A stretch of DNA of 59,638 bases from Steroidobacter agaridevorans. Lineage in GTDB: Bacteria > Pseudomonadota > Gammaproteobacteria > Steroidobacterales > Steroidobacteraceae. Position 1 is the first letter of the stretch, and each line of letters starts with the position of its first letter. Under the pieces are notes generated by a model. It was not told the origin of the DNA. It did no database searches and was given only the letters and a program-made list of their open reading frames with translations. The translations under genes were made by a program, and so were the position numbers. Shown here one piece after another: positions 47,609 to 59,638 of this stretch. Location of the stretch: contig NZ_BLJO01000009.1 in the NCBI RefSeq assembly GCF_009932555.1, positions 420,200-479,837 of the forward strand, given 5' to 3'.

Positions 47609-49129
47609 CTAGGGAAGCGCTAGTGATGGTCGGTAAGAACCGTCGCGTGCGCCCTCGAAGTCAAATTCGTAAAGCGTAAGGGGCGCCAACAATGGGCAGT
47701 GCTGGCCGAGGTACAAGGTGAATCCGTTCGGTGCCGCGACGAACAGATGGACGCGGCTTTGTGTTTCAGGCTGCGACTCGCGCTGCGCCTTGACTCGACG
47801 CGCAAGTGCCTCCGCCAACTGATATGCATGGTGTCCTGAGGCCACGGCGCTGGACGAGGCCCCCCCGACGGGCTTGAACGTAAGCAGGGTACGCGGAGGC
47901 AGTGGCAGTGCGCTCAAATACGCCCGAACCTTCGGTTCAACATCATGCGTGAGGGACACAGCGATAGCCATGTCGGCTCCGGCGCTTGCGAACTCGTATT
48001 CCGCGACCTCCCACGATGGTCTGATCACATCCGATTCGTCGTCGGGTGACCACAACCGTCGCGAGGGCGTTCGCTGCTCAATCTCCAGGACTCTGCCGCT
48101 CTTGCGATTGAGGACGGCCCCTGTCGCAAATGCCAGCGTGGTATGCGCGTCAATCGCGAGACGAATACGGTCATGTGATCGCGCAGCTCGCAACAGAAAA
48201 GTCTGCAACGTCGGCAGAAGCGTCGCATTCCAGGTCGCGCCCTCTCGAATGAATCGGTTGTCAAACTCCGCAACCAGATCTAGGACTTCCGTACACCGAT
48301 CCTCAAGACGATCGATCGGATGCTCGAACGACTTGATTCCAAATGCGACGCTGCGATCGCCCTTCCCCTCGAACAATCCATCCTGTACGCACGCTTTGCG
48401 AAAGAGCTTTCGATCGAAGACGTTGCGACCTTGGGCTGCCCACTGGCGCACGATATCGTCATAGAGCACTGCGCTACTCTCTGCAGGCACGCGCCTTAGG
48501 CCAAACGCCCTGCACGTCACATCGAGACGTTCTCTCATGTCATCCAGCGATTCGCCGAAATACGAGAAACCAAGTGCTGCGGCAAGTCGGCGCAGTTCGA
48601 TCTCGTCGAGTTGCAGATGTTCGCGCCAGAGCTTACGGATCTGTGCTGTTGCGCTTCTCGCGGTTGTTCCTTCGAATAGCTCGTCAACCTTGAGAGTATG
48701 TGACCGACTCCGGATCAGTGACGACAGACGATCGTTAGGGTCTAGGCGCCAATTGGTCACGAACTTGAGCCTCAATGCACACTCGTCTGCTGTCGAGTGA
48801 TCGAGGAGCGCCGCGTATGCACGCTGCAGAAGTGACTTGGTGCTCGCATTAATGAATTGGGGTTCGGTCAGGTCCTTGTGCGTATAAAGACCTGGAGAGA
48901 CGTGCCACTTGCACTGAAAGAACTCTTTCGCGAGTGGTACCCCGTACTGGTCTTTGGGGCGATGCGACGGATCGTATTCGACCCAAAGATCGTCGAATCC
49001 GCGCGGGCCGCATTCAAAGCCAACGCGTTGTATTGGGCCTTCGTCGTCCAGTAGGTGTGCTGCCTTGAGCCAGAACAACCTCGCTTGGAAATCATCTCCA
49101 TCGCGCCGTGCGCCGATAGCGTTCGCCAT
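47609..49129 (-). CDS. cap4: CBASS effector: nuclease domain fused to SAVED domain (Cap4-like)
   Basis: 506 residues from ATG 49129, 13 bases after the CD-NTase stop; the frame is open to 49243 but there it overlaps that gene. The N-terminal part (about 1-200) is a PD-(D/E)xK-type nuclease of the DUF4297/Cap4 group: DDFQARLFWLKAAHLL, GFDDLWVEYDP (Asp46/47) and EFFQCKWH (Gln72-x-Lys74). The C-terminal part (from about 320) looks like a SAVED domain (RLAIDAHTTLAFATGAVLNRKSG...AIAVSLTHDVEPKVRAYL). SAVED binds the cyclic oligonucleotide made by the adjacent enzyme, which switches on DNA degradation and aborts phage growth. Confidence 0.85.
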   Translation of the reverse strand: MANAIGARRDGDDFQARLFWLKAAHLLDDEGPIQRVGFECGPRGFDDLWVEYDPSHRPKDQYGVPLAKEFFQCKWHVSPGLYTHKDLTEPQFINASTKSLLQRAYAALLDHSTADECALRLKFVTNWRLDPNDRLSSLIRSRSHTLKVDELFEGTTARSATAQIRKLWREHLQLDEIELRRLAAALGFSYFGESLDDMRERLDVTCRAFGLRRVPAESSAVLYDDIVRQWAAQGRNVFDRKLFRKACVQDGLFEGKGDRSVAFGIKSFEHPIDRLEDRCTEVLDLVAEFDNRFIREGATWNATLLPTLQTFLLRAARSHDRIRLAIDAHTTLAFATGAVLNRKSGRVLEIEQRTPSRRLWSPDDESDVIRPSWEVAEYEFASAGADMAIAVSLTHDVEPKVRAYLSALPLPPRTLLTFKPVGGASSSAVASGHHAYQLAEALARRVKAQRESQPETQSRVHLFVAAPNGFTLYLGQHCPLLAPLTLYEFDFEGARDGSYRPSLALP

Positions 49130-49142
49130 GACTTGCGTGCGC

Positions 49143-50042
49143 TCAGGAAAGTGGGAAAAGGGGGCCGAATAGCTGTCGCCAGGTCTTAAGAGCCTCGCCG
49201 CCTCTTCCTTGGCGCGCGTGATGGATGGCGAGACCTGCCTCACGAGCCGCGGTGGTCAATAGAATTTTGGCGCGATCGACGCGCTTCTGATCCATGGACG
49301 CACTGATCGGCGGCCCCAGCGCCGCAGGATCCGGCCACGTGTCGCCGATGCGATCGGCCAACGTCGCAAAGAAGCTTTGGATCTCCCGATCATATTGCCC
49401 GCCCCAACCGCAAAACAGGCATTGGAGTGCCATCACCTCGATCAGGAAGGACGGCTTAATCGGCTTCTCGCCGTGCTTCGGATTGTTATTCCAGTATTTG
49501 ACCATTCTGACTAGTCCCTTCCACTCATTTCCGTACGCCTGATGTGCTTGCGTCGCCTTGTCCGCATGGATGTCAGGGTTCGTCTTGATCCACTTGCCCG
49601 TATCACCGTCTGGAATTTCGTAGTCGTTGCCACTATTGAAGGCGGGCACGACATCGACACTTAAGATCTGTTCGTTGGCGTTGTCCTCCGCATCGACGCT
49701 CACCCCGAAGTCGATATTGATGGAGCGACTTTGCTTGCGTACGGCCTTTTCCCCATATTTCTCGCTCAGCGCAGCCTTGTAGTTATCAAGCACCAGGCCG
49801 GCGGCCTTGCCACGGTAGTGCTTCTCGCTCTCCTTCATGACGAAGAAGATGTCGATGTCCTTGAGCGGCTTGGTCTTGGTGTATCGAGCATATGAGCCAG
49901 TGAGGAAGTCCCGGTCAATCGCGTACCTGGTGCGAACGTACTCGCGCACTTCGTTGTGCCGCTTGGTTGCGTTCTTCTGCTCACCGTTCGTGAGTTCGAG
50001 CCGGCTCTTGAACTTTCGGAAGGCTTCGTCGATCGTGAGCAT
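49143..50042 (-). CDS. CD-NTase (cGAS/DncV-like nucleotidyltransferase) of a CBASS system
   Basis: 299 residues from ATG 50042, overlapping the HORMA gene stop by one base (TGATG). The nucleotidyltransferase core is plain: [24 protein letters not shown] with Gly49-Ser50 and Asp62/Asp64, and the third Asp at 130 in [10 protein letters not shown]. Further on, [13 protein letters not shown] and [14 protein letters not shown] fit the SMODS/OAS1-like C-terminal domain. It makes a cyclic di- or trinucleotide when activated by the HORMA partner on infection. The clade (D is likely from the operon type) and product cannot be told from sequence here. Confidence 0.92.
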
Positions 50043-50542
50043 CAGTGCTTTCTCCAGTAGCTTGTGTTGGCGCCGAGTCCATTGTGCTCGATGGTTGTGC
50101 CGAGGCTTTGACGCACCATGCCGTCCGTGGATAGGTAGGACGTGTTCGACCAACCAGCAACCTCGGGTTCTCCCGGCTTGTTCTGCACGAGTACGCGATA
50201 CTGAGCCTGTGCGGGCAGAAGACCGGATTTCTTGATGGCGTACCTGAGTTGATCTGTGTCGGTCCAAAAGGTCCCAGCATTGAGATCCCACTGGTACGAG
50301 ACGCTAACATCCCAGCGGGTAATGAGCTTGTTCGTGGACGGCTCATAAATCTCCAAGGTCACACTCCGCAAGTGCTGCGACTCAATCCAACGGCTTATCC
50401 CGCGCAGTAAGACCTCCCAGTCGCCTATCAACTTCTGTGGATCAAGTCCACTTAGCCGGATGATGTCCTTGAGGCTCTTCAGGATGTTGTCGGCAACGTA
50501 CGTGACCGAATGCGTATAAGAATAGACGGCGACGGTGCTCAT
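50042..50542 (-). CDS. Bacterial HORMA-domain protein (CBASS sensor/activator, Cap7-like)
   Basis: 166 residues. It starts [20 protein letters not shown], with [47 protein letters not shown], the pattern of bacterial HORMA proteins. The C-terminal segment after about 120 is the likely safety belt. In type III CBASS a HORMA protein closes around a peptide and then activates the CD-NTase. ATG 50542 overlaps the preceding stop by four bases, so the two HORMA genes are coupled. Confidence 0.85.
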
Positions 50543-51024
50543 GAGCGGAGAAATGCCTCGGTGTCGATGGCCAGGTCTTGATCTTTCACGAAGGATTTTT
50601 CATCCGACGTCGCGGCATTCACTGGTTGGGTGGCGTCTCTAGCCGTGATGCGCGATGATTTCGTCTTGAGCGCACGCTGCACCCAGGACAGGTCGTCGGC
50701 GGGACATGGCAAAGAGATCGTCCAGTTTCCGGAAAGCGGGTCATATCCCAGAGCGTCTTCCCGGGCGTCATGGCCGGCAATCGCGTCCTCGTCGTAGGAA
50801 CAATAGATGCGCGTGCGCGGGCCGTCGCAGATCACGACGATCGCAGCGTCCTTCGGACTGCGCTCGGCGATCAACGCACTCGCGACTCCTGCGACCGAGA
50901 GCAGTTCATCGCGCTCCGCTCCCGCCTTTCCTCGAGTGAGTAACTCGATTATCGCGGTCCATGTTTGTGTTGTGTCGCGGTATGGTGAGCTACGGATGAC
51001 CCGGCTTGCGACTGTGGCGCTCAT
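50539..51024 (-). CDS. Second, divergent HORMA-like protein of CBASS (HORMA3/Cap8-like)
   Basis: 161 residues with little overt similarity. It is placed by position between the TRIP13 gene and the first HORMA gene, with four-base overlaps on both sides. The middle ([22 protein letters not shown]...[23 protein letters not shown]) could be a degenerate HORMA core. The C-terminal 35 residues look flexible and end [14 protein letters not shown]. In described two-HORMA CBASS operons, the tail of this second protein is the closure peptide bound by the first. Function here is inference from operon order. Confidence 0.7.
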
Positions 51025-51926
51025 GATGACCTCCGCACTGATCTGGCGGCCTTGGCCGCTCGTGCCGCCTCAAGCAAATCGGACATTGTCAATTCCTCTG
51101 GGCGCAGTGCCACCTGCTTGCGTACCGTCAACGCATTCGCGACCACCTTTCGGATTGTCCGCCCGTCGAGGCCGACGAGCTCACTGACCACCTTGGAGAA
51201 CCCCTCGCTCGCTGGTAAGCGCCTGATGGGTGCAAATGTGGCCGCCAATCCCTCAAGACATGAGGCGAGGATCTGCTCGCATGCCGCTTTGTTGGGCAAT
51301 GGGATCTCTAGCACGAGATCACAACGTGAGGTGAACGCCGAATCCACCGCTTGTGGAAAATTGCTCGTGGCGACAAACAGCAAGTTGGCATGCTGCTCAG
51401 CCAGTGCGTCGAGTTGCACGAGGACAGCATCGGTTGCTCGATGGACGTCGATGGGATTGGCTTCCAGGCTCAGCTTCGCTCGATCCGCGGCGAGCGTCTC
51501 GACTTCGTCCAGCAGAACGATGGTGTAGCCGCCGGCCATTGCCGATTCGGCGATCGACTGTGAAAAAAGATCGGATACTGCCTTCTGCGTCTTCCCCATC
51601 ATGGAGCTGCCAAGGGCGTGCGCGTCCACCTCGAGCAATGTGAAACGAGAGCCCTTGAACGATTCAGCTGTTCGCTGCGCCAATCCCCTCGCGAGCGAAG
51701 TCTTGCCTGTGCCCGGGGGACCGACCAGAAGGATCGCGCCGTGCAACGGCAAGACCGTGCGGGCGACCTTCGGTCGGACTGTGAAGTTTACGACGGCCTG
51801 GGACAGCAACTGGTCCTTGATCGCCGGGTCCAGGACGATCGAGTCCCAGAGTTCAGCGAGCTCCGGGGCAGGCAATTTTCGTGATTGGTGGATGCCTTTG
51901 GCTTGGGCGGCGTCTTCAGATTTCAC
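51021..51926 (-). CDS. cap6: TRIP13/Pch2-like AAA+ ATPase (CBASS Cap6)
   Basis: 301 residues. Walker A is GPPGTGKT (69-76), Walker B VLLDEVE (Asp140/Glu141), sensor 1 VATSNFP, and an arginine-finger region TSRCDLVLEIPLP, with GLDGRTIRKVVANAL in the lid. Bacterial TRIP13 proteins open and recycle HORMA proteins and so keep the CD-NTase off before infection. It is the first gene of the five-gene CBASS operon. The upstream region is shared with the divergent sigma-factor operon. Confidence 0.93.
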   Translation of the reverse strand: MKSEDAAQAKGIHQSRKLPAPELAELWDSIVLDPAIKDQLLSQAVVNFTVRPKVARTVLPLHGAILLVGPPGTGKTSLARGLAQRTAESFKGSRFTLLEVDAHALGSSMMGKTQKAVSDLFSQSIAESAMAGGYTIVLLDEVETLAADRAKLSLEANPIDVHRATDAVLVQLDALAEQHANLLFVATSNFPQAVDSAFTSRCDLVLEIPLPNKAACEQILASCLEGLAATFAPIRRLPASEGFSKVVSELVGLDGRTIRKVVANALTVRKQVALRPEELTMSDLLEAARAAKAARSVRRSS

Positions 51927-51978
51927 ATAATTCCTTTATTGATAACTCAGTCACACTTTCCGGCTCTCAGACCGAATT

Positions 51979-52017
51979 ACGCTCAAGCGTGAAAGCAGCG
52001 AAATCACGCTTCGGCGT
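51979..52017. promoter_or_regulatory. Paired palindromes in the CBASS / sigma-operon promoter region
   Basis: ACGCTCAAGCGT (51979-51990) and ACGCTTCGGCGT (52006-52017) are two inverted repeats built from the same half-site T(C/T)ACGC. Their centres are 27 bp apart. They lie midway in the 146-bp gap between the TRIP13 start (51926) and the sigma-factor start (52073). A shared operator for both operons is the natural reading; which protein binds is unknown. Confidence 0.55.
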
Positions 52018-52072
52018 ATATGCTGGTGTCCAAGAAGAACAGCCCCGACGGGATTTGGGTGGGCAGAAGAAA

Positions 52073-52777
52073 ATGGCGGGATTGATCGACATGAGGGAAC
52101 AGTCCGATGAGGATCTGTTCGTATATATGTCGTTCATCGACAACGCATCGGACCGGCCGGTTGCGGAGGCAGCCTTCGCCGAAGTTCATCGTCGCTACGC
52201 CGCCGAACTCTACTCGCGCTGTCGCGATTTGTGTCGGCGGTTGGGTCAACCCACGAGCCTCGCTGAGGACCTGGTATCGCTGACGCTAACCCGTGCACTC
52301 GACCGGGCAGAGACCTACCGCGGACCAGGAACGTCAGCGCGGACCATGGCGTGGCTGTGCAAGATTGCTCGCAATGCACTCATTGACGCCCATCGGAACC
52401 CACATCGACCGAGCAGCATTGGTAGCGGGTCAGACTCCGATCTGGGGGCTGAGATCTATTCAGCTCAAGACTTTGCTTCGTTGTATCACCAGTTCGAAAG
52501 TCCACTTGCGACAAGGGAGCATTGGACGCGTGTGGCTGCGGCCTTCCAAGAACTCGATGAGAGGTGCCAGCGAGTGCTGCTGGAGACATTGCTGCAGCGG
52601 TCGAAATCACCCGGCCAGTCCTACATGTATCGCGGAACCGCTGCCCTGCTTGCTGAACGACTGGGAATCACGCCCGAGAATCTGCGCCGCATCCGCTACA
52701 AAGGGATGAAGGCGATTAGTGAGAAACTGCAGCAATGCATGCCTTCGAAAGGAGCTAAACATGGCACAGCTAGATAA
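52073..52777 (+). CDS. Sigma-70 family (ECF-like) RNA polymerase sigma factor
   Basis: 234 residues from ATG 52073 (AGAAGAAA just upstream); ATG 52091 is an alternative. The open frame reaches back to 51881 but that part crosses the TRIP13 start. Region 2 is LYSRCRDLCRRLGQPTSLAEDLV...TMAWLCKIARNALIDAHRN. Region 4 is FQELDERCQRVLLETLLQ...ALLAERLGITPENLRRIRYKGMKAI. It overlaps the next gene by 17 bases. It is divergent from CBASS across the palindromes, so CBASS itself, or its own operon, is a likely target. Codon use is less GC-biased than the core genes. Confidence 0.85.
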   Translation: MAGLIDMREQSDEDLFVYMSFIDNASDRPVAEAAFAEVHRRYAAELYSRCRDLCRRLGQPTSLAEDLVSLTLTRALDRAETYRGPGTSARTMAWLCKIARNALIDAHRNPHRPSSIGSGSDSDLGAEIYSAQDFASLYHQFESPLATREHWTRVAAAFQELDERCQRVLLETLLQRSKSPGQSYMYRGTAALLAERLGITPENLRRIRYKGMKAISEKLQQCMPSKGAKHGTAR

Positions 52778-53126
52778 GCTCCGAAACCAGTTAGAAGCGA
52801 TTCATTTAGCCTTCGAAAAGCTTGAGCAGGCGTTGGAACACTCCGGCTTGCTGTTGCCAACGACGGAGGAAATGGTTGTCGCGTCTCGAGCATACGTCGA
52901 GCTAGAAGAGTTGCCGGAGCAACTTAGAGATCCAGCCGAGCTGTTAAAGCGTGGTCGTCGCGTAGAGAAGGAAGGCTTGTCGTTGATGCCAGGAACGTCG
53001 AGTCAACAAGATTCGCATGTTGATGGCGAGTTTGCACTTGCGGCGCGCAACGGTGGAAAGCTCAATGATGTTCTGCTTGCGCGGATGCACGCAGACCGCG
53101 CGGCGATACAGAAGAGACGTTCCTGA
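52761..53126 (+). CDS. Small coiled-coil protein, candidate anti-sigma factor / protease substrate
   Basis: 121 residues. Strong ribosome site AAAGGAG 7 bases before ATG 52761. The N-terminus is a predicted coiled coil (LDKLRNQLEAIHLAFEKLEQALE), then LPTTEEMVVASRAYVELEEL. The C-terminal third is low in order (SSQQDSHVDGEFALAARNGG) and ends basic. No family recognised. It is translationally coupled on both sides: 17-base overlap with the sigma factor, and its stop TGA overlaps the ATG of the ImmA/IrrE protease. By position it is the natural candidate to hold the sigma factor and be cleaved by the protease; this is a hypothesis. Confidence 0.75.
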   Translation: MAQLDKLRNQLEAIHLAFEKLEQALEHSGLLLPTTEEMVVASRAYVELEELPEQLRDPAELLKRGRRVEKEGLSLMPGTSSQQDSHVDGEFALAARNGGKLNDVLLARMHADRAAIQKRRS

Positions 53127-53929
53127 TGACATCGCGTTGCGACGAAATTGAAGAATTGGCGGGATTCGTCGCGGACTCTTATTTTCCGAACGACAAAATC
53201 GATCCATACAAGTTGGCGGAGGCGAACGGGATCAGCTACAACTTCGGTCACTACGAAGACGCCTTCGACGGGCTACTCGAGTATCGGGACCACGCATTTC
53301 ACATCTATGGAAATGCTGATCGGATACGGGACGAATCATACCCCCGAGCGCGCTTCACCTTTGCCCACGAGTTGGGTCATTACTATATCGATGAGCATCG
53401 TCTTTCCCTTGAGAGTGGATCGGCGGCGGTCGCCTGTCTGACTGATTTTCAATCAGACATGTCGGTCGAGCGAGAGGCGGATCACTTCGCTTCCTACCTG
53501 CTGATGCCGAACCAACGATTCTTGAGCTACGCGCGAACGTGCTCCAAGGGCTCTGCTGCGATTCGCACCCTAGCGGATGCCTTCGGAACCTCGCTCTCAA
53601 GCACCGCAATTCGATACGCACGCAGCAATGTCTCGCCGGTGATTGTGATGTGCTGGACATCAGCGCTTAGGCGGTGGTGCTGGTCTTCCCGAGACTTCTA
53701 CGATCTGACAAATAACTGGGCATTCAAGGATCCATCTCGGCTGCCCCGCGATGCAGAGACGGTGCGACTCCTGGGTGACCCAACTCTTACTGCAAAGCCT
53801 CGCGGAACGACTCTGAGCACGTGGTTCCCGAGAGTCAGGCGAGGAAGTCTGCAGGACTTCATCATGATTGAAGATGTATTGAGTCTCGGCGCTTATGGAG
53901 TGATCACGCTTCTCTATTCCGAGCGATAA
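53126..53929 (+). CDS. ImmA/IrrE family metallo-endopeptidase
   Basis: 267 residues. The zinc motif HELGH is at 81-85 (RARFTFAHELGHYYIDEHR) and the third-ligand segment EREADHFASYLLMP at 115-128. KLAEANGISYNFGHYEDAFDGLLEY at the start is typical. The C-terminal part (about 180-267) has no match I know and may be a sensing domain. Family members (ImmA, IrrE/PprI, CapP) cleave an HTH repressor in response to DNA damage. Here there is no HTH partner but a sigma factor and a small protein. The start overlaps the previous stop by one base. Confidence 0.93.
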   Translation: MTSRCDEIEELAGFVADSYFPNDKIDPYKLAEANGISYNFGHYEDAFDGLLEYRDHAFHIYGNADRIRDESYPRARFTFAHELGHYYIDEHRLSLESGSAAVACLTDFQSDMSVEREADHFASYLLMPNQRFLSYARTCSKGSAAIRTLADAFGTSLSSTAIRYARSNVSPVIVMCWTSALRRWCWSSRDFYDLTNNWAFKDPSRLPRDAETVRLLGDPTLTAKPRGTTLSTWFPRVRRGSLQDFIMIEDVLSLGAYGVITLLYSER

Positions 53930-54002: not shown

Positions 54003-54810
54003 TCACGTGTATCGTGGGGTCCCAAGCAGACTGGAAACTCTAACGCGCCGTCCCAGTCCAGCCTCTTCTGCAGTTGATCGGATAGCTTCGATTTGCTTGT
54101 CGCCCAACAGCGGACCCCAGTATATGCGGTCAATAAGAGCATCGAGGTTGAAAGCCACGTCGATGCCCAGCTCTGGAACTTGCACGCCAAACTCTTCAGC
54201 CATGCGGACTGAGATCGCGAGCCGAAACTCCTTCCCAAGAGAAGGCCATGTGCTTGTACCAGAAGCGATCCATCATGCTTACCCGCAAGCGCTCCTTCAG
54301 AAGGTCAACATAGTTGACATTGCCAGCCCACAGATCCTCTGTTCCATAGCTTGGGTGGAGCCGAAAAGGCTTAGCGGCAGCCTGAATTCGCTCGGCATTG
54401 GTCCGTATGGCAATGCCCTTATGTGAGCCGGCATAGAGGTGCCACATCGCGTCGCTTTCGCATGTAGCGCGGTGCCAGCGACTAATCTCAGTAAGGCGCT
54501 TGAGCTGCTCGAATGCGCGCTCTGCCCCGTCTAGCTACACATATCGCGGATCAACGGGAAAGCCCGGGGGAAGTACTGCGACGGCGCCCTCGAAGCGGTC
54601 GTTGAACTGGCGGGCGGACGCGAAGTGCGGGCAACCCGTCTGCATGAGGGCCGCAAAACGTTCAGGCTTGAAGTAGCGCCACAGGGGCTCAGCCATATCG
54701 AGCGCCCGATTATCAATGATACGCACGCGTGCTTCGCTCCTACCCATCGATATGGGCGACTGGTCGCAGCAATATATCAATTCGAAAGTGTACTCGAGAT
54801 GCAATTCCAC
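54003..54810 (-). pseudogene. DUF2971 protein gene, inactivated
   Basis: The three pieces join into one DUF2971 protein. Piece one is PLWRYFKPERFAALMQTG...RQFNDRFEGAVAVLPP. Piece two is CESDAMWHLYAGSHKGIAIRT after an in-frame TAG at 54535-54537. Piece three (FRLAISVRMAEEFGVQVPEL) is reached only by a frameshift near 54223-54230. One nonsense and one frame change make it non-functional unless sequencing errors are involved. DUF2971 proteins are of unknown role and often sit near defence genes. It is convergent with the ImmA/IrrE gene. Confidence 0.8.
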
Positions 54811-55031: not shown

Positions 55032-56027
55032 TCAGCGAACGAGGGGCATATCTTTGTTACGCGCACGAGCCAGTTCCACCAGCTCATGTGCCAACCTCTC
55101 CTTTTCGGTGCGCGGAGCCGGCATTTGGCTGACGAATCTTGCAACATCATTGGCAAGTTGGTGCCGTCCCTCGACGAGCAGAACATCCCGCACAGCTTTC
55201 CATCCGCGCACGACTTCCATTCTGGTTTTATGGAGCCGAGCGGCGCCGGATCTATTTAGAGACGCCGCTTTCAGTTCAAGCGCGACATCGCTCACCCGGG
55301 CGACCATGTGCGACGACTCTCCCCTCTGAGCTGCCCTAAAAATCGGGTCCAACTTCGGTGCACGACTTTGCCCGCGAACGGCGCGCTCCGAGGCGTTCGC
55401 CTCAACGCCATGCGCCCGAAGCTGACGTGCAAACTCCTGCCGCCAATGCCGCAGAGTCGCCTTGCGAATATTGAGCCGCACGCCATCTTCGCTGAGAGCC
55501 TTCACCACCACATGCACATGCGGGTGCGGCTCATCCGTGTGCAGCACCATGGCGTATCGGTGCTTGAGCCCGAATTCCTCGCGCGCGAAGTCGCGAACAG
55601 CCGCCAGTACCTTCTGCGGCGGCGTGCCGGCCGGCATGGAGAAGATCAGCCTGTGGACGAGCTTCGGCGGCTTTCGCCGATTAGTCGCGAACAGGTCGAG
55701 CCGCTTGCGATCTTCATCCAGATCCAAGTCCCAATCGTCGACGAGCTGCCGCCCTACTCCCCGGCCGGTCAAGCGCTGGCCGTCGTCGGTCTCGATCTCC
55801 AACTCGCCGCGCCTGCCGATGTAGCTAAAATGTGCATTGACGCCTCGGCCAGTGGTCGAACCGCCACCGCCCGTCACCTTGACCACTACTTCAGGCGCTC
55901 GCGAGACCGTCCGGTGGATCTGCGCGATCTGAGCCGGGGTCAGGGAAAGCCGATTTTCGGGACCTGCACGGCCGTAGCTGATGATGTCGAGGATCGGTCG
56001 ACCTGTCTCAAGTCTGATCGTTCGCAT
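55032..56027 (-). CDS. Relaxase / mobilization nuclease (MobA/VirD2-type)
   Basis: 331 residues from ATG 56027 (GGAAG 6 bases upstream); an ATG at 56051 is possible. The metal-binding three-His motif is VLHTDEPHPHVHVVV around residue 170, with the preceding KLVHRLIFSMPAGTPPQKVL and FAREEFGLKHRYAMV. A Tyr in ISYGRAG or HFSYIGR could be catalytic. It nicks oriT and pilots the strand into a recipient. Its start overlaps the end of the mobC-like gene by 20 bases. No type IV secretion genes are in the window, so it would need a helper element. Confidence 0.88.
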   Translation of the reverse strand: MRTIRLETGRPILDIISYGRAGPENRLSLTPAQIAQIHRTVSRAPEVVVKVTGGGGSTTGRGVNAHFSYIGRRGELEIETDDGQRLTGRGVGRQLVDDWDLDLDEDRKRLDLFATNRRKPPKLVHRLIFSMPAGTPPQKVLAAVRDFAREEFGLKHRYAMVLHTDEPHPHVHVVVKALSEDGVRLNIRKATLRHWRQEFARQLRAHGVEANASERAVRGQSRAPKLDPIFRAAQRGESSHMVARVSDVALELKAASLNRSGAARLHKTRMEVVRGWKAVRDVLLVEGRHQLANDVARFVSQMPAPRTEKERLAHELVELARARNKDMPLVR

Positions 56028-56559
56028 AACCTGCTTCCCAACTCCTGGCATTGGCTTTGATCAGCTCCTTGGTATGAGCGCGCATCCCTTCGCATACCTT
56101 TAGCATCATTTGCAGAACATCCCCGCCGGGTGCGACCGAGCCCGGTCTCTGGTGCGCCAGACGAGCCAGCTGGTTGAGGTTTCTACCGATCGCACTGAGC
56201 TCGGCGACAGAGCGCTTTAGCTCCATCAGCTCCGCCTTGGGAAGCGGCGACAGCGTCCGCAGATGGGCGCGCACCAGGACGGAGACGTACGTGGCCGCCG
56301 GCATCTGCCGAGCTGCCGCCCTTTCCGCCAGCAACAAATGATCGTCCGGGTGCAGTCGGACACACAGCCGAGCGCCTCGCAGGCGTCGCTCTGGCGACTT
56401 CAGAACATCGGCATCGTTCACGCCGCCGGTGTGTACGGCCATATCGACGAGCCGTTTCAGCAACGCCGACTCGGTCATCTGCTGCTGTTCCGCGAGGCTG
56501 CGGAACCGCGCTTTCGTCTCCGCAGAGACGCGAGCAGCGATGAGGTGCGTGGTGCCCAT
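56008..56559 (-). CDS. mobC: MobC-like relaxosome accessory protein
   Basis: 183 residues from ATG 56559. The N-terminus resembles a ribbon-helix-helix (TTHLIAARVSAETKARFRSLAEQQQMTESALLKRLV). The C-terminus has the MobC stretch LKRSVAELSAIGRNLNQLARLAHQ. It bends oriT DNA and aids the relaxase. A longer reading to 56634 would run through the candidate oriT. Two-gene unit with the relaxase. Confidence 0.85.
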   Translation of the reverse strand: MGTTHLIAARVSAETKARFRSLAEQQQMTESALLKRLVDMAVHTGGVNDADVLKSPERRLRGARLCVRLHPDDHLLLAERAAARQMPAATYVSVLVRAHLRTLSPLPKAELMELKRSVAELSAIGRNLNQLARLAHQRPGSVAPGGDVLQMMLKVCEGMRAHTKELIKANARSWEAGYANDQT

Positions 56560-57302
56560 GGACCAGAGTGTTAAACAAAAGCAGCCGCAGGCCAATCCTG
56601 CAATTAGCCGCTTTTTTGATCGAAACTCAAACATTCGCAGTCGCTGATTCCAGCGGAGTGCGTGGCAGTTCGAGGAGGAAGAGTTCGACCGTTGGCGATA
56701 TTTGCTAATTTTTTCGAGGCCGGTGATCTTTGGCCTCGAGCGCGTGTGTTTTATGGTGAGACTGAGATTCGGTGCGCATGAGTTCTGGAATATATCGCCG
56801 GGTGTGCTCCGCCGTTTGTCGGCGTACTGTCTTCATCGAAATGCAGACGACGCGACGCCTGTGTAACGATCACCCAGAGCGCTCCTCTCGATCTTGGCTC
56901 ACCACCCCGTCGGACGCCTGGCATCACGGGCCATACGAGGGGCCGCTTGCGCGAGGAAGAGACCCTGCCCAGTCACCAATACAGCAGCGGGACTCGTTCT
57001 CGCATCGTGGCCGACGGGCCCCGTCCAGGCGATGCCCATCTCTACGGGGCCAGTTGTGGGCTGGGCGGCGGGCAGGAAGCTGTCCGCAGGCGGCTCTGGG
57101 TCGCTTTCCTACAAGCTCATCCGATCACCGTTCTTATTCGTCCCGACATCGGGAGACTATCGAAGCAGCGCGCGAGACGACTCGCCTGTAGCGCGCAATC
57201 TGGTCTGCCGGCAGTGACGTGGATGGTGAAGACGACGCCACATAGAAACGGTCGCGCGACAAATTGCGACGCCACGCGACCGTTGGGATTGCCACCCATC
57301 CG
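56560..57302. other. Gene-free region upstream of mobC holding a likely oriT
   Basis: 743 bases between mobC and the methyltransferase. Several plus-strand frames are open (such as 56894-57217) but none is recognisable or has a ribosome site. The mobC-proximal end holds the repeats listed at 56585-56739. Nothing else was identified. Confidence 0.5.
56595..56739. other. Candidate origin of transfer (oriT)
   Basis: ATCCTG|C at 56595-56601 equals the RP4-type (MOBP) nick consensus. It sits inside a small GCAGG-ccaat-CCTGC hairpin (56586-56600 region). A perfect 8-bp inverted repeat, TCGAGGCC / GGCCTCGA (56714-56721 / 56732-56739), lies further up. Location directly upstream of mobC-relaxase fits an oriT. 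Nick position is inference. Confidence 0.45.
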
Positions 57303-58203: not shown

Positions 58204-59561
58204 GGTGCGACGAGAGTCGCTGGTAGAAGTTAGAAGTTATAACTTAGGAGGTGATGTTACTTCTTCAGTGGCGTGAAGCCACGATGATGATTGTCAGCCA
58301 ACTTGCTCGGAGAGAACAAGCTGAGCTGACCGGATGTTCAGTCATCCGTAGCCTATGGGCTGTGGCGGAGTCCGAGAGGAACCGTCTAAAGCGCCCTGAC
58401 AATGGACCCTCGCGTTAGCGACAGAATCGATCCGTGAGGATCGTTTCTGGAGTCTGCCAGCTACACGGCGGACAAGGGACTAGGCTCGGTGGTCGGGTGA
58501 ACGTAAGTGAACTGCTGTTACAACTATCGTCATTATTGACAGGCGAAAGTAGCTGTATGCGCCTGAGCCAAAATGGCACGCGGTCGGATGACCTGATCCC
58601 TCACCGGGTCACACTGACGCAGTACCGCCGGTAGACAAGCAGCACCCACCCCACCGCGTCATCGTCGTGGAACTCGGTAAACCCGTTGTCTTCCCCTGCG
58701 GATGGGCCGCCGGGGTCTGCGAGCTGCAAAGCGCGTGACGGGATAGCGGGCAAAGGATCGCGGAGAAAGCAAACGCCGGGCTGTAACGGTCCGGATAGGA
58801 GACAACGTGCTCCACCCGAAAGGGGGCTGACTTCCGTGTGGTGTGGTGGAGCGAGAACGTATGCCGAATCATCTCGATAGGAGGTCAGCAAGTATGCGAT
58901 CCGTGATAGCGGATTCTGCGACCGCCCGCAGCGTGAACAACTGGACCCAAATCGATTGGCCCATCGTACACGATCGCGTGAGAAGACTGCAGACTCGTAT
59001 CGCTCAGGCAACTCGTGATCAGGACTGGCGCCGGGTGAAATCCCTGCAACGGTTCCTGGTCAACTCGTTCTCGGCCAAGACATTGGCCGTGAAACGAGTA
59101 TCGGAAAGCGATGGCAAGCGAACACCGGGTGTGGACGGCGAGACTTGGACCACCCCGGAAGCCAAATGGCAAGCCATCCAGCGGTTGGGCAGCCGCGGTC
59201 TTCGACCGCAGCCTCTGCGCCGGGTGTACATCCCCAAGCGCGGGAGCACAAAGATGCGCCCACTGGGAATCCCCACCATGACGATTCGAGCCCAGCAAGC
59301 TTTGCATTTGCTGGGGCTGGAGCCGGTGGCAGAAACACGCGCCGACCCTCACTCCTACGGTTTCCGTCGGTATCGAGGGCCGCAGGACGCCATCGCGCGC
59401 GTGTTCAAACTGTTGGTGCAGAAAGGTTCAGCACCGTGGATTCTCGAAGGGGACATCAAAGGCTGCTTCGACAACTTCCGACACGGATGGTTGGAAAGTC
59501 GCATCCCGATGGATAGGAACGTTCTTCGGGACTGGCTCAAGGCTGGATATATGGAGTCTGG
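58204..59561 (+). mobile_element. Group II intron, 5' part, interrupted by an IS
   Basis: The 5' boundary consensus GTGCGAC begins at 58204. About 690 bases of structured domain I-IV RNA follow, including GGTGAACGTAAGTGAACTGC, a stretch typical of bacterial introns, and then the reverse transcriptase gene. Domains V and VI are missing because the RT gene is broken at 59561 by an IS21-like end. It lies on the strand opposite the methyltransferase. The boundary is inferred from consensus; class was not assigned. Confidence 0.75.
58894..59561 (+). pseudogene. ltrA: Group II intron reverse transcriptase/maturase, truncated
   Basis: Start ATG 58894 follows AGGAGG at 8-base spacing. About 222 residues remain of a usual 420-600. 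NNWTQIDWPIVHDRVRRLQ, AVKRVSESDGKRTPGVDGETW, RRVYIPKRGSTKMRPLGIPT, DPHSYGFRRYRG and the first RT Asp motif ILEGDIKGCFDN are present. The YADD active site, thumb and maturase domains are lost. From 59562 the frame runs on for 22 codons in IS sequence to a stop at 59628. Confidence 0.88.
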
Positions 59562-59638
59562 TGTTAGCGCCGGAGTAAAACTGACCCACCCCCGCCGAAG
59601 TAAAAGTGACCCACCTGGGCGAGGATGACGGCTTTTTG
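59562..59638. mobile_element. Left end of an IS21-family-like insertion sequence (cut by window edge)
   Basis: The RT gene stops matching at TGTTAGCGCCGGAGTAAAAC. A 16-base motif occurs twice, 25 bp apart: GTAAAACTGACCCACC (59575-59590) and GTAAAAGTGACCCACC (59600-59615). Repeated GTAAAA(N)TGACCCACC blocks behind a TG terminus are the transposase-binding ends of many IS21 elements. The istA/istB genes would lie to the right. Confidence 0.65.

Follow-up and report, generated by a model that had tools for sequence, protein, structure and literature searches.

A sigma factor, a small protein and a CapP-like protease encoded divergently from a type III CBASS operon in Steroidobacter agaridevorans form a candidate immune controller

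The window analyzed in this study is a 59,638-nucleotide stretch of the Steroidobacter agaridevorans genome (NCBI RefSeq assembly GCF_009932555.1, contig NZ_BLJO01000009.1, positions 420,200 to 479,837 of the forward strand), which carries a three-gene set divergent from a type III cyclic oligonucleotide-based antiphage signaling system (CBASS). The listing of open reading frames (ORFs) and a coordinate check placed all three genes on the plus strand: a sigma factor gene of the extracytoplasmic function (ECF) type (52073, or 52091, to 52777), a gene for a 121-aa protein (52761–53126), which is proposed below to be an anti-sigma factor and protease substrate, and a gene for a CapP-like ImmA/IrrE (M78) metalloprotease (53126–53929). 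The sigma ORF overlaps the 121-aa ORF by 17 bp, and the latter overlaps the protease ORF by 1 bp. A region of 146 bp separates the sigma operon from the divergent TRIP13 start (GTG at 51926). The original prediction had described this layout, and coordinates, Pfam and PADLOC agree with it. All parts expected of a type III CBASS were found on the minus strand by Pfam and PADLOC. The first gene encodes a TRIP13-like ATPase (51021–51926; PADLOC TRIP13, 9.5e-141), followed by two HORMA proteins (50539–51024; PADLOC HORMA, 1.2e-67; and 50042–50542; Pfam bacHORMA_2, 1.3e-85), a CD-NTase, which is the oligonucleotide cyclase (49143–50042; PADLOC Cyclase, 4.7e-143; Pfam SMODS), and a Cap4-like SAVED-domain endonuclease effector of uncertain start (47609–49216; PADLOC Effector/Endonuclease, 1.9e-187; Pfam SAVED, 1e-28).

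The sigma factor of the window matches Pfam Sigma70_r2 (2.2e-9) and NCBIfam sigma70-ECF (score, 51.1 bits; cut-off, 42.9), with the matches spanning residues 30–213. When compared with solved structures, its family profile gave SigW (5wuq; 1.7e-12) as the best ECF match and also matched region 4 of SigA-type sigma factors. Regions 2 and 4 were both found in the family; at E ≤ 0.01, Pfam detected region 2 in 23 and region 4 in 13 of 41 members, and the remaining members were assigned by alignment and position. No PADLOC model matched the window sigma gene. The protease matches Pfam M78 (6.8e-11) and, over residues 7–265 of 267, the PADLOC capP model (2.4e-47), and it carries the motif HELGH, which is kept in all 39 triplet proteases inspected. 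The best solved match of the protease family profile was CapP (7t5t; 3.3e-26; profile positions 76–269 of 271), with IrrE-type structures next (8slm and 3dte). The PADLOC and 7t5t matches identify the window protein as a CapP-type M78 protease, including the C-terminal part. It is reported in passages of PMC13373217 that single-stranded DNA (ssDNA) activates CapP, which cuts CapH. No WYL family was present among the Pfam matches of the three window proteins at E ≤ 1, and the locus was thus not assigned to the CapW type.

The 121-aa protein had been called unrecognized. This description holds for Pfam and NCBIfam, in which no family matched at E ≤ 1, but the PADLOC capH model does match the protein weakly (2.3e-4). 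In a 41-row alignment of the family, the most conserved part is a C-terminal core, A-A-R-x-G, at residues 94–98: R96 is present in 41 of 41 rows, A95 in 40, and A94 and G98 in 39, while M109 and D112 are kept in 37. The N-terminal part is conserved as well, with G29 and P33 in 39 rows each. The AlphaFold2 model of the window protein has a long N-terminal helix (residues 2–28) and four shorter ones, with a low confidence overall (predicted local distance difference test 75.8; predicted template modeling score 0.33). The coiled coil named in the original prediction is neither supported nor contradicted by this model.

Conservation of the three-gene set was examined by a scan of genome_contigs with an alignment of two proteases (those of the window and of Isosphaeraceae), which yielded 80 loci. 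Among the best 40 of these, 39 are triplets of sigma, small-protein and protease genes, with sigma ORFs of 204–289 aa and small ORFs of 99–140 aa; the sole non-triplet is locus L103. It should be considered that the scan favors triplets because both query proteases come from triplets. Eleven small genes escaped a motif filter, and inspection by eye showed 10 of them to be present. The closest relative, a Gammaproteobacteria bog metagenome-assembled genome (L072), is identical to the window at 91 of 221 aligned residues in the sigma factor, 35 of 110 in the small protein and 128 of 263 in the protease. Another locus of the window's class, L017, was an early protease match with the same order of sigma-like, small and protease genes; it was the sole triplet among 17 early protease loci whose upstream genes were inspected by eye, most of the others having a helix-turn-helix (HTH) gene. 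Two triplets on two contigs were observed in Kaistella yonginensis CECT 7547 (L089 and L092).

The small-protein profile alone matched 14 of 395 genomes (phylum of G1042, the L087 genome). Two of the 14 were already known, and 12 regions were opened, one of which (L211) is a repeat of L085, leaving 11 new loci. In 12 of 12 opened regions (11 of 11 new loci), the small gene is immediately preceded by the sigma gene, and the protease gene lies downstream in 10 of the 11 new loci, the exception being L222. No relative of any of the three window proteins was found in viral_contigs by single-sequence scans. Likewise, nothing was found when plasmids were searched with the window small protein and sigma factor, and the window small protein recovered only itself from 296 genomes of the window's order.

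Triplets also occur on plasmids, where 10 of the 11 regions opened hold three genes in triplet order (Rhodoferax, Polaromonas, Azospirillum, Cereibacter, Rhodobacteraceae S2214, Bradyrhizobium, Celeribacter, Pseudoalteromonas, Spirosoma and Isosphaeraceae). Only Azospirillum and Isosphaeraceae have the first gene annotated as a sigma factor; in the other triplets it is labeled hypothetical and was judged sigma-like from its size, its position and inspection by eye. In the remaining region, Mesorhizobium L071, an HTH gene is paired with a protease gene beside CBASS. Profile comparison demonstrated that the proteases of this plasmid class (class A) and of the window class (class B) are clearly related (5e-33), and the small proteins of the two classes have the core alone in common (26 columns; E value, 5e-5; probability, 68%). 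Homology between the sigma-like proteins of class A and those of class B was considered and is not supported (hhalign probability, 4%), and class A is therefore joined to class B by the protease homology and the short C-terminal motif only. Class A proteases matched 33 loci in viral_contigs, and the class A small-protein motif precedes the protease in one of them, L152, by eye.

The linkage of the triplet to defense operons that had been predicted beforehand was observed. An immune operon, namely CBASS, the pyrimidine cyclase system for antiphage resistance (Pycsar), bacterial ubiquitin-like (Bub) or another ubiquitin-like system, adjoins 29 of the 39 triplets, and a minus-strand gene lies divergently beside the sigma gene in 36 of them (gaps of −12 to 558 bp). 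By reference matching and by PADLOC and Pfam analysis of representatives, the neighbors were assigned to Bub (13), CBASS (10), Pycsar (3), ubiquitin-like/E2/JAB (3) and DUF1508/YegP-like genes (2), with none found for 8. The Bub operons comprise multi-ubiquitin PF14452 and DUF6791/ThiF, and the Pycsar operons comprise PycTM and PycC. Five of the CBASS neighbors have TRIP13, three of these together with NucC, and five are of other kinds. Seven of the 11 new loci have an immune operon, of which three are Bub and four are CBASS (with patatin, Sa_NUDIX, Cap15 or E1-E2 parts). On plasmids, nucleotidyltransferase/SAVED operons are the divergent neighbors of the Cereibacter and Pseudoalteromonas triplets, and a multi-ubiquitin/E2/ThiF operon is that of the Celeribacter triplet. 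Small DUF2188, DUF3892 or DUF1508/YegP-like genes oppose the sigma gene as the first or second divergent gene in L059, L065, L066, L080 and L106, and are also nearby in L060 and in L071, where a CapH gene takes the place of the sigma gene. YegP-like genes are reported in passages of PMC13373217 to lie beside the CapK/CapS controller as well.

Other M78 loci of the same scan (L103 and L112–L151) were used as controls. When 123 upstream proteins from 31 triplet loci were analyzed by PADLOC, independently of the reference proteins used above, CBASS cyclases, TRIP13 and E2 were among the 25 commonest families. For 129 upstream proteins from 37 of the 41 control loci, the 25 commonest of 193 families were mainly of type I restriction-modification, rarer CBASS matches beyond those 25 being possible, and 12 of the 129 proteins matched type I methyltransferase models. 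Since control M78 genes are also near defense genes, closeness to defense in general is not special to the triplet; what stands out is its back-to-back closeness to signaling-type immune operons. A direct comparison of neighbors, 32 of 39 against 0 of 41, was not used as a clean statistic, because the reference proteins come largely from triplet loci and one of the 32, L073 (a generic AAA gene), was dropped.

Shared promoter regions were analyzed in a set of 36 non-redundant intergenic regions that included the window, after near-identical copies of four loci had been dropped. A de novo count of 5- to 7-mers singled out AAGCGTGACA, and GTGACA is present on both strands in 17 of the 36 regions (shuffle mean, 0.07). 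The aligned sites form a directional bipartite element, TGTCACGCTT-N4-GTATA, with one copy toward each operon. Using the class B search pattern TCAC-N8-(GTA, CATA, CTATA or ATATA), the element was found toward the sigma gene in 24 of the 36 regions, toward the other operon in 22 and in both directions in 21, window included (shuffle means of 0.68, 1.05 and 0.02, respectively). In equal 150-nt upstream windows, it was present before 20 of 36 sigma genes compared to 5 of 395 other genes. In 17 of the 24 regions, 27–47 nt separate the element from the called start of the sigma gene downstream; in the window, the element lies 88 nt from 52091. Both window copies are exact matches to the conserved TCACGCTT-NN-GCGTA, one facing the CBASS operon (51978–51992, minus strand) and the other facing the sigma operon (52004–52018, plus strand). 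Together they make a 41-bp gapped palindrome (51978–52018) with 28 of 41 positions self-complementary, a value reached in 0 of 200 shuffles, and L072 carries a nearly identical one. At up to one mismatch, the window contains two matches against a shuffle mean of 0.11, and 2 of 100 shuffles reach two.

At the genome scale, the strict element has exactly two matches in each of G1042 and G1045, both at the sigma/divergent promoter; the other four of the six triplet genomes searched have no match. A looser pattern gave four matches in the window's 8-Mb genome, two of which are at the shared promoter. In the plasmid-type and related triplets (11 regions), TGTCCG-N15/16-CCGCATA-like pairs were found in 7 of 11 regions in each direction and in 6 in both (shuffle means < 0.01). 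A spacing of 15 or 16 nt is usual for ECF promoters. The cis element, which the window shares with more than half of the related promoters in the main set, is consistent with control by the sigma factor, and the paired copies are presumably its promoters.

Five triplet genomes were without an immune match by the reference set (L073, L215, L218, L219 and L220). L073 is labeled Thermochlorobacteriaceae, and the other four were grouped with it by reading, L219 least surely. By eye, the triplets of L215, L218 and L220 lie beside rbfA/truB/ribF-like genes. The strict element has seven matches in these five genomes: two at the organisms' own sigma genes (one 184 nt before the sigma ORF, the other inside an over-long ORF call), two upstream of recA and three elsewhere. 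A search directed at recA found the element upstream of this gene in three of the five genomes, with 0, 0 and 1 mismatch at 194, 274 and 137 nt before the ORF, respectively. A looser pattern was also tried in the recA genomes and was near background (13 matches against 9 in the reversed control), and therefore the strict pattern alone was used.

We propose that the three genes locally control the divergent immune operon. Guided by the sigma factor, RNA polymerase would start from two promoters that point outward from the shared intergenic region; one would drive CBASS and the other the sigma operon itself, which would create positive feedback. In the unstressed cell, the N-terminal part of the 121-aa protein would bind the sigma factor and thereby silence it. 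DNA damage or phage replication would give rise to ssDNA that activates the CapP-like protease, the active protease would cut the small protein near the AAR-x-G core, and the sigma factor set free by this cut would switch on CBASS. As judged from sequence comparisons, we consider it moderately probable that an anti-sigma factor blocks the sigma factor in this way until a damage-activated CapP-type protease cuts it and CBASS is turned on. The original prediction contained much the same chain and is supported in part: the sigma-promoter-like element facing both operons, found at many loci, supports sigma-driven transcription of CBASS, and the predicted sequence of sequestration, damage and cleavage agrees with the CapP homology and the link to recA.

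The division of roles within the small protein can be approached through locus L222, where the N-terminal half of the small protein is fused to an unrelated domain of approximately 200 aa, and where neither a protease gene nor the AAR-x-G core is present. Because classes A and B share the core and related proteases without demonstrably related sigma factors, and because of the arrangement in L222, it is suggested that the core goes with the protease and the N-terminal part with the sigma factor. The small protein is a likely substrate of the protease, as its core is the most conserved part, is common to both classes and is absent in the one locus where the protease is absent. Regarding L222 itself, the gene, on the reverse strand of its region, adjoins a Bub-like operon and is followed by a caspase-like gene (by eye). 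The fused protein had no Pfam match, and a guess that its C-terminal domain is SocA/Panacea-like was unsupported by Pfam.

Several results weigh against the proposed switch. By Pfam, no anti-sigma family was detected among 37 small proteins; by sequence, the best match to solved structures was unrelated (E value, 0.15); and a Foldseek search with the low-confidence AlphaFold2 model returned no fold match. Fifteen of the 36 regions are without the element pair, and in the 11 further loci the element faces the sigma gene in three and both directions in none. The 8-bp gap from TGTCAC to GTATA in the class B element is shorter than the usual ECF spacer, and both the class B and the plasmid-type patterns were written after the sites had been inspected. 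When tested for gapped palindromes, 7 of 37 regions, including the window, had p ≤ 0.05, and a general test for paired copies gave significance for 10 of 44 regions, of which the window is not one (ungapped 22-nt, p = 0.49). Of the eight triplets for which no immune operon was found, three (L089, L092 and L109) have less than 1 kb of contig upstream. Finally, the element was not upstream of recA in the other two of the five stand-alone genomes, and the three positive cases are not independent because the genomes are related.

As a first alternative, the small protein could be a divergent form of CapH and repress the promoter itself, either together with the sigma factor or by way of it, and CapP would cut it as in CapH/CapP. 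The protease does belong to the CapP family, the paired element of the window is palindromic like an operator, and the PADLOC capH model (PDLC04142) matches 31 of 37 small proteins at E ≤ 0.01 with a best E value of 2.8e-18, spanning most of their length in genome searches (e.g., model positions 2–102 of 103 in G1043). This PADLOC result stands against refusing the CapH label. However, the same model also matches true HTH CapH-like genes (1.4e-27 for the L071 record) and responds in 14 of 14 control genomes, and is therefore unspecific. Pfam analysis of the 37 small proteins gave weak single-member matches, none of them to a bacterial repressor HTH and one to a UBR1-type winged helix (E value, 0.0046), and no homology to ten HTH CapH-like proteins emerged from profile comparison (E values of 0.23 for class B and 0.08 for class A). 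The small protein was not filed as CapH for these reasons. Moreover, the distance between the two element copies varies widely among loci, unlike that within one dimeric operator; a single operator was thus rejected in favor of two directional elements. Taken together, we regard a CapH-type repressor as unlikely.

Alternatively, the sigma factor could depend on the small protein as a partner, as split or co-factor sigma factors do, or the small protein could inhibit the protease; the protease would then switch the system off or cut the sigma factor. The absence of detectable anti-sigma homology fits such a role, and the sign of control is not fixed by the sequence results, but the conservation of the AAR-x-G core, its sharing across classes and its loss together with the protease appear to point to a substrate, which makes this alternative improbable. 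It is very unlikely that the triplet is a separate stress or toxin-antitoxin-like unit that hitch-hikes in defense islands without controlling its neighbor: control M78 genes do lie beside defense genes, with type I restriction-modification prevailing in the 25 commonest families, and stand-alone triplets do exist, three of them beside rbfA/truB/ribF-like genes, but in 36 of 39 loci a divergent gene lies next to the sigma gene, at most 558 bp away, and in both strict-match genomes of the six searched the paired outward elements are confined to the shared promoter.

Some features of the window outside the three-gene set and CBASS were also observed. Downstream of the triplet, three short adjoining minus-strand ORFs (54003–54810) resemble fragments of one broken gene in the ORF list. 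Relaxase-like and MobC-like ORFs (55032–56634) and, at the right edge, a group II intron-type reverse transcriptase ORF (58843–59628) were noted by eye. Because of these ORFs, the CBASS region of the window is probably on a mobile element.

How host-killing immune operons are silenced until infection is an open question. If the proposed switch is correct, the answer at these loci would be a positive logic, in which a dedicated sigma factor is freed by a CapP-type protease and feeds back on its own operon, and the switch would be compact and portable, common to CBASS, Pycsar and ubiquitin-like systems in Bacteroidota and Proteobacteria. The recA link of the stand-alone copies would further tie immune activation to DNA damage. 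A broader reading, for which we see even prospects, is that the triplet is a widespread, undescribed immune controller, a switch of sigma factor, anti-sigma factor and CapP-type protease that serves CBASS, Pycsar, Bub and other systems through a paired divergent promoter. In Chlorobi-like bacteria without an immune operon, the same genes would form a DNA-damage sigma regulon that includes recA, and the immune switch would probably have been recruited from, or have given rise to, a non-SOS damage response. Annotation could overlook a sigma switch of this kind, as the PADLOC capH and capP models match the small protein and protease while none matched the window sigma factor. In particular, model PDLC04142 matches both HTH CapH-like proteins and the small-protein family, and annotation by this model would hide a sigma-type controller.

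Among the top-ranked papers listed in searches of open full-text literature, no title or abstract opening named an immune controller made of a sigma factor, a small protein and an M78 protease; the priority of the sigma version is not certain. CapW, CapH/CapP and CapK/CapS are described in passages of PMC13373217 as local immune controllers that act through repressors. Similar to the triplet, CapK and CapS lie beside CBASS, Bub and YegP-like genes and have parts resembling the anti-sigma world, but those passages present CapK as a kinase and CapS as a DNA-binding repressor and mention neither a sigma factor nor a protease (PMC13373217). The triplet resembles CapH/CapP in its CapP-family protease, in its location beside CBASS and Bub operons and in a small protein that is likely a protease substrate. 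It differs in that no HTH repressor was found among the 37 small proteins by Pfam; a sigma factor and a small protein stand in its place, and therefore control would be positive rather than repressive. PprI/IrrE and DdrO of Deinococcus share the M78 protease family with the triplet, and the recA link of the stand-alone triplets is a further likeness. DdrO is an HTH repressor, whereas the triplet has a sigma factor and a small protein in that position. Finally, ECF sigma/anti-sigma pairs of the RseA, RsiV and FecR type likewise place a small partner gene behind an ECF-type sigma gene, and proteolytic release is proposed for the triplet as well. Classical release in these pairs uses site-1 and site-2 proteases, whereas the partner in the triplet is without a known anti-sigma domain and is encoded in the same operon as a CapP-type protease.

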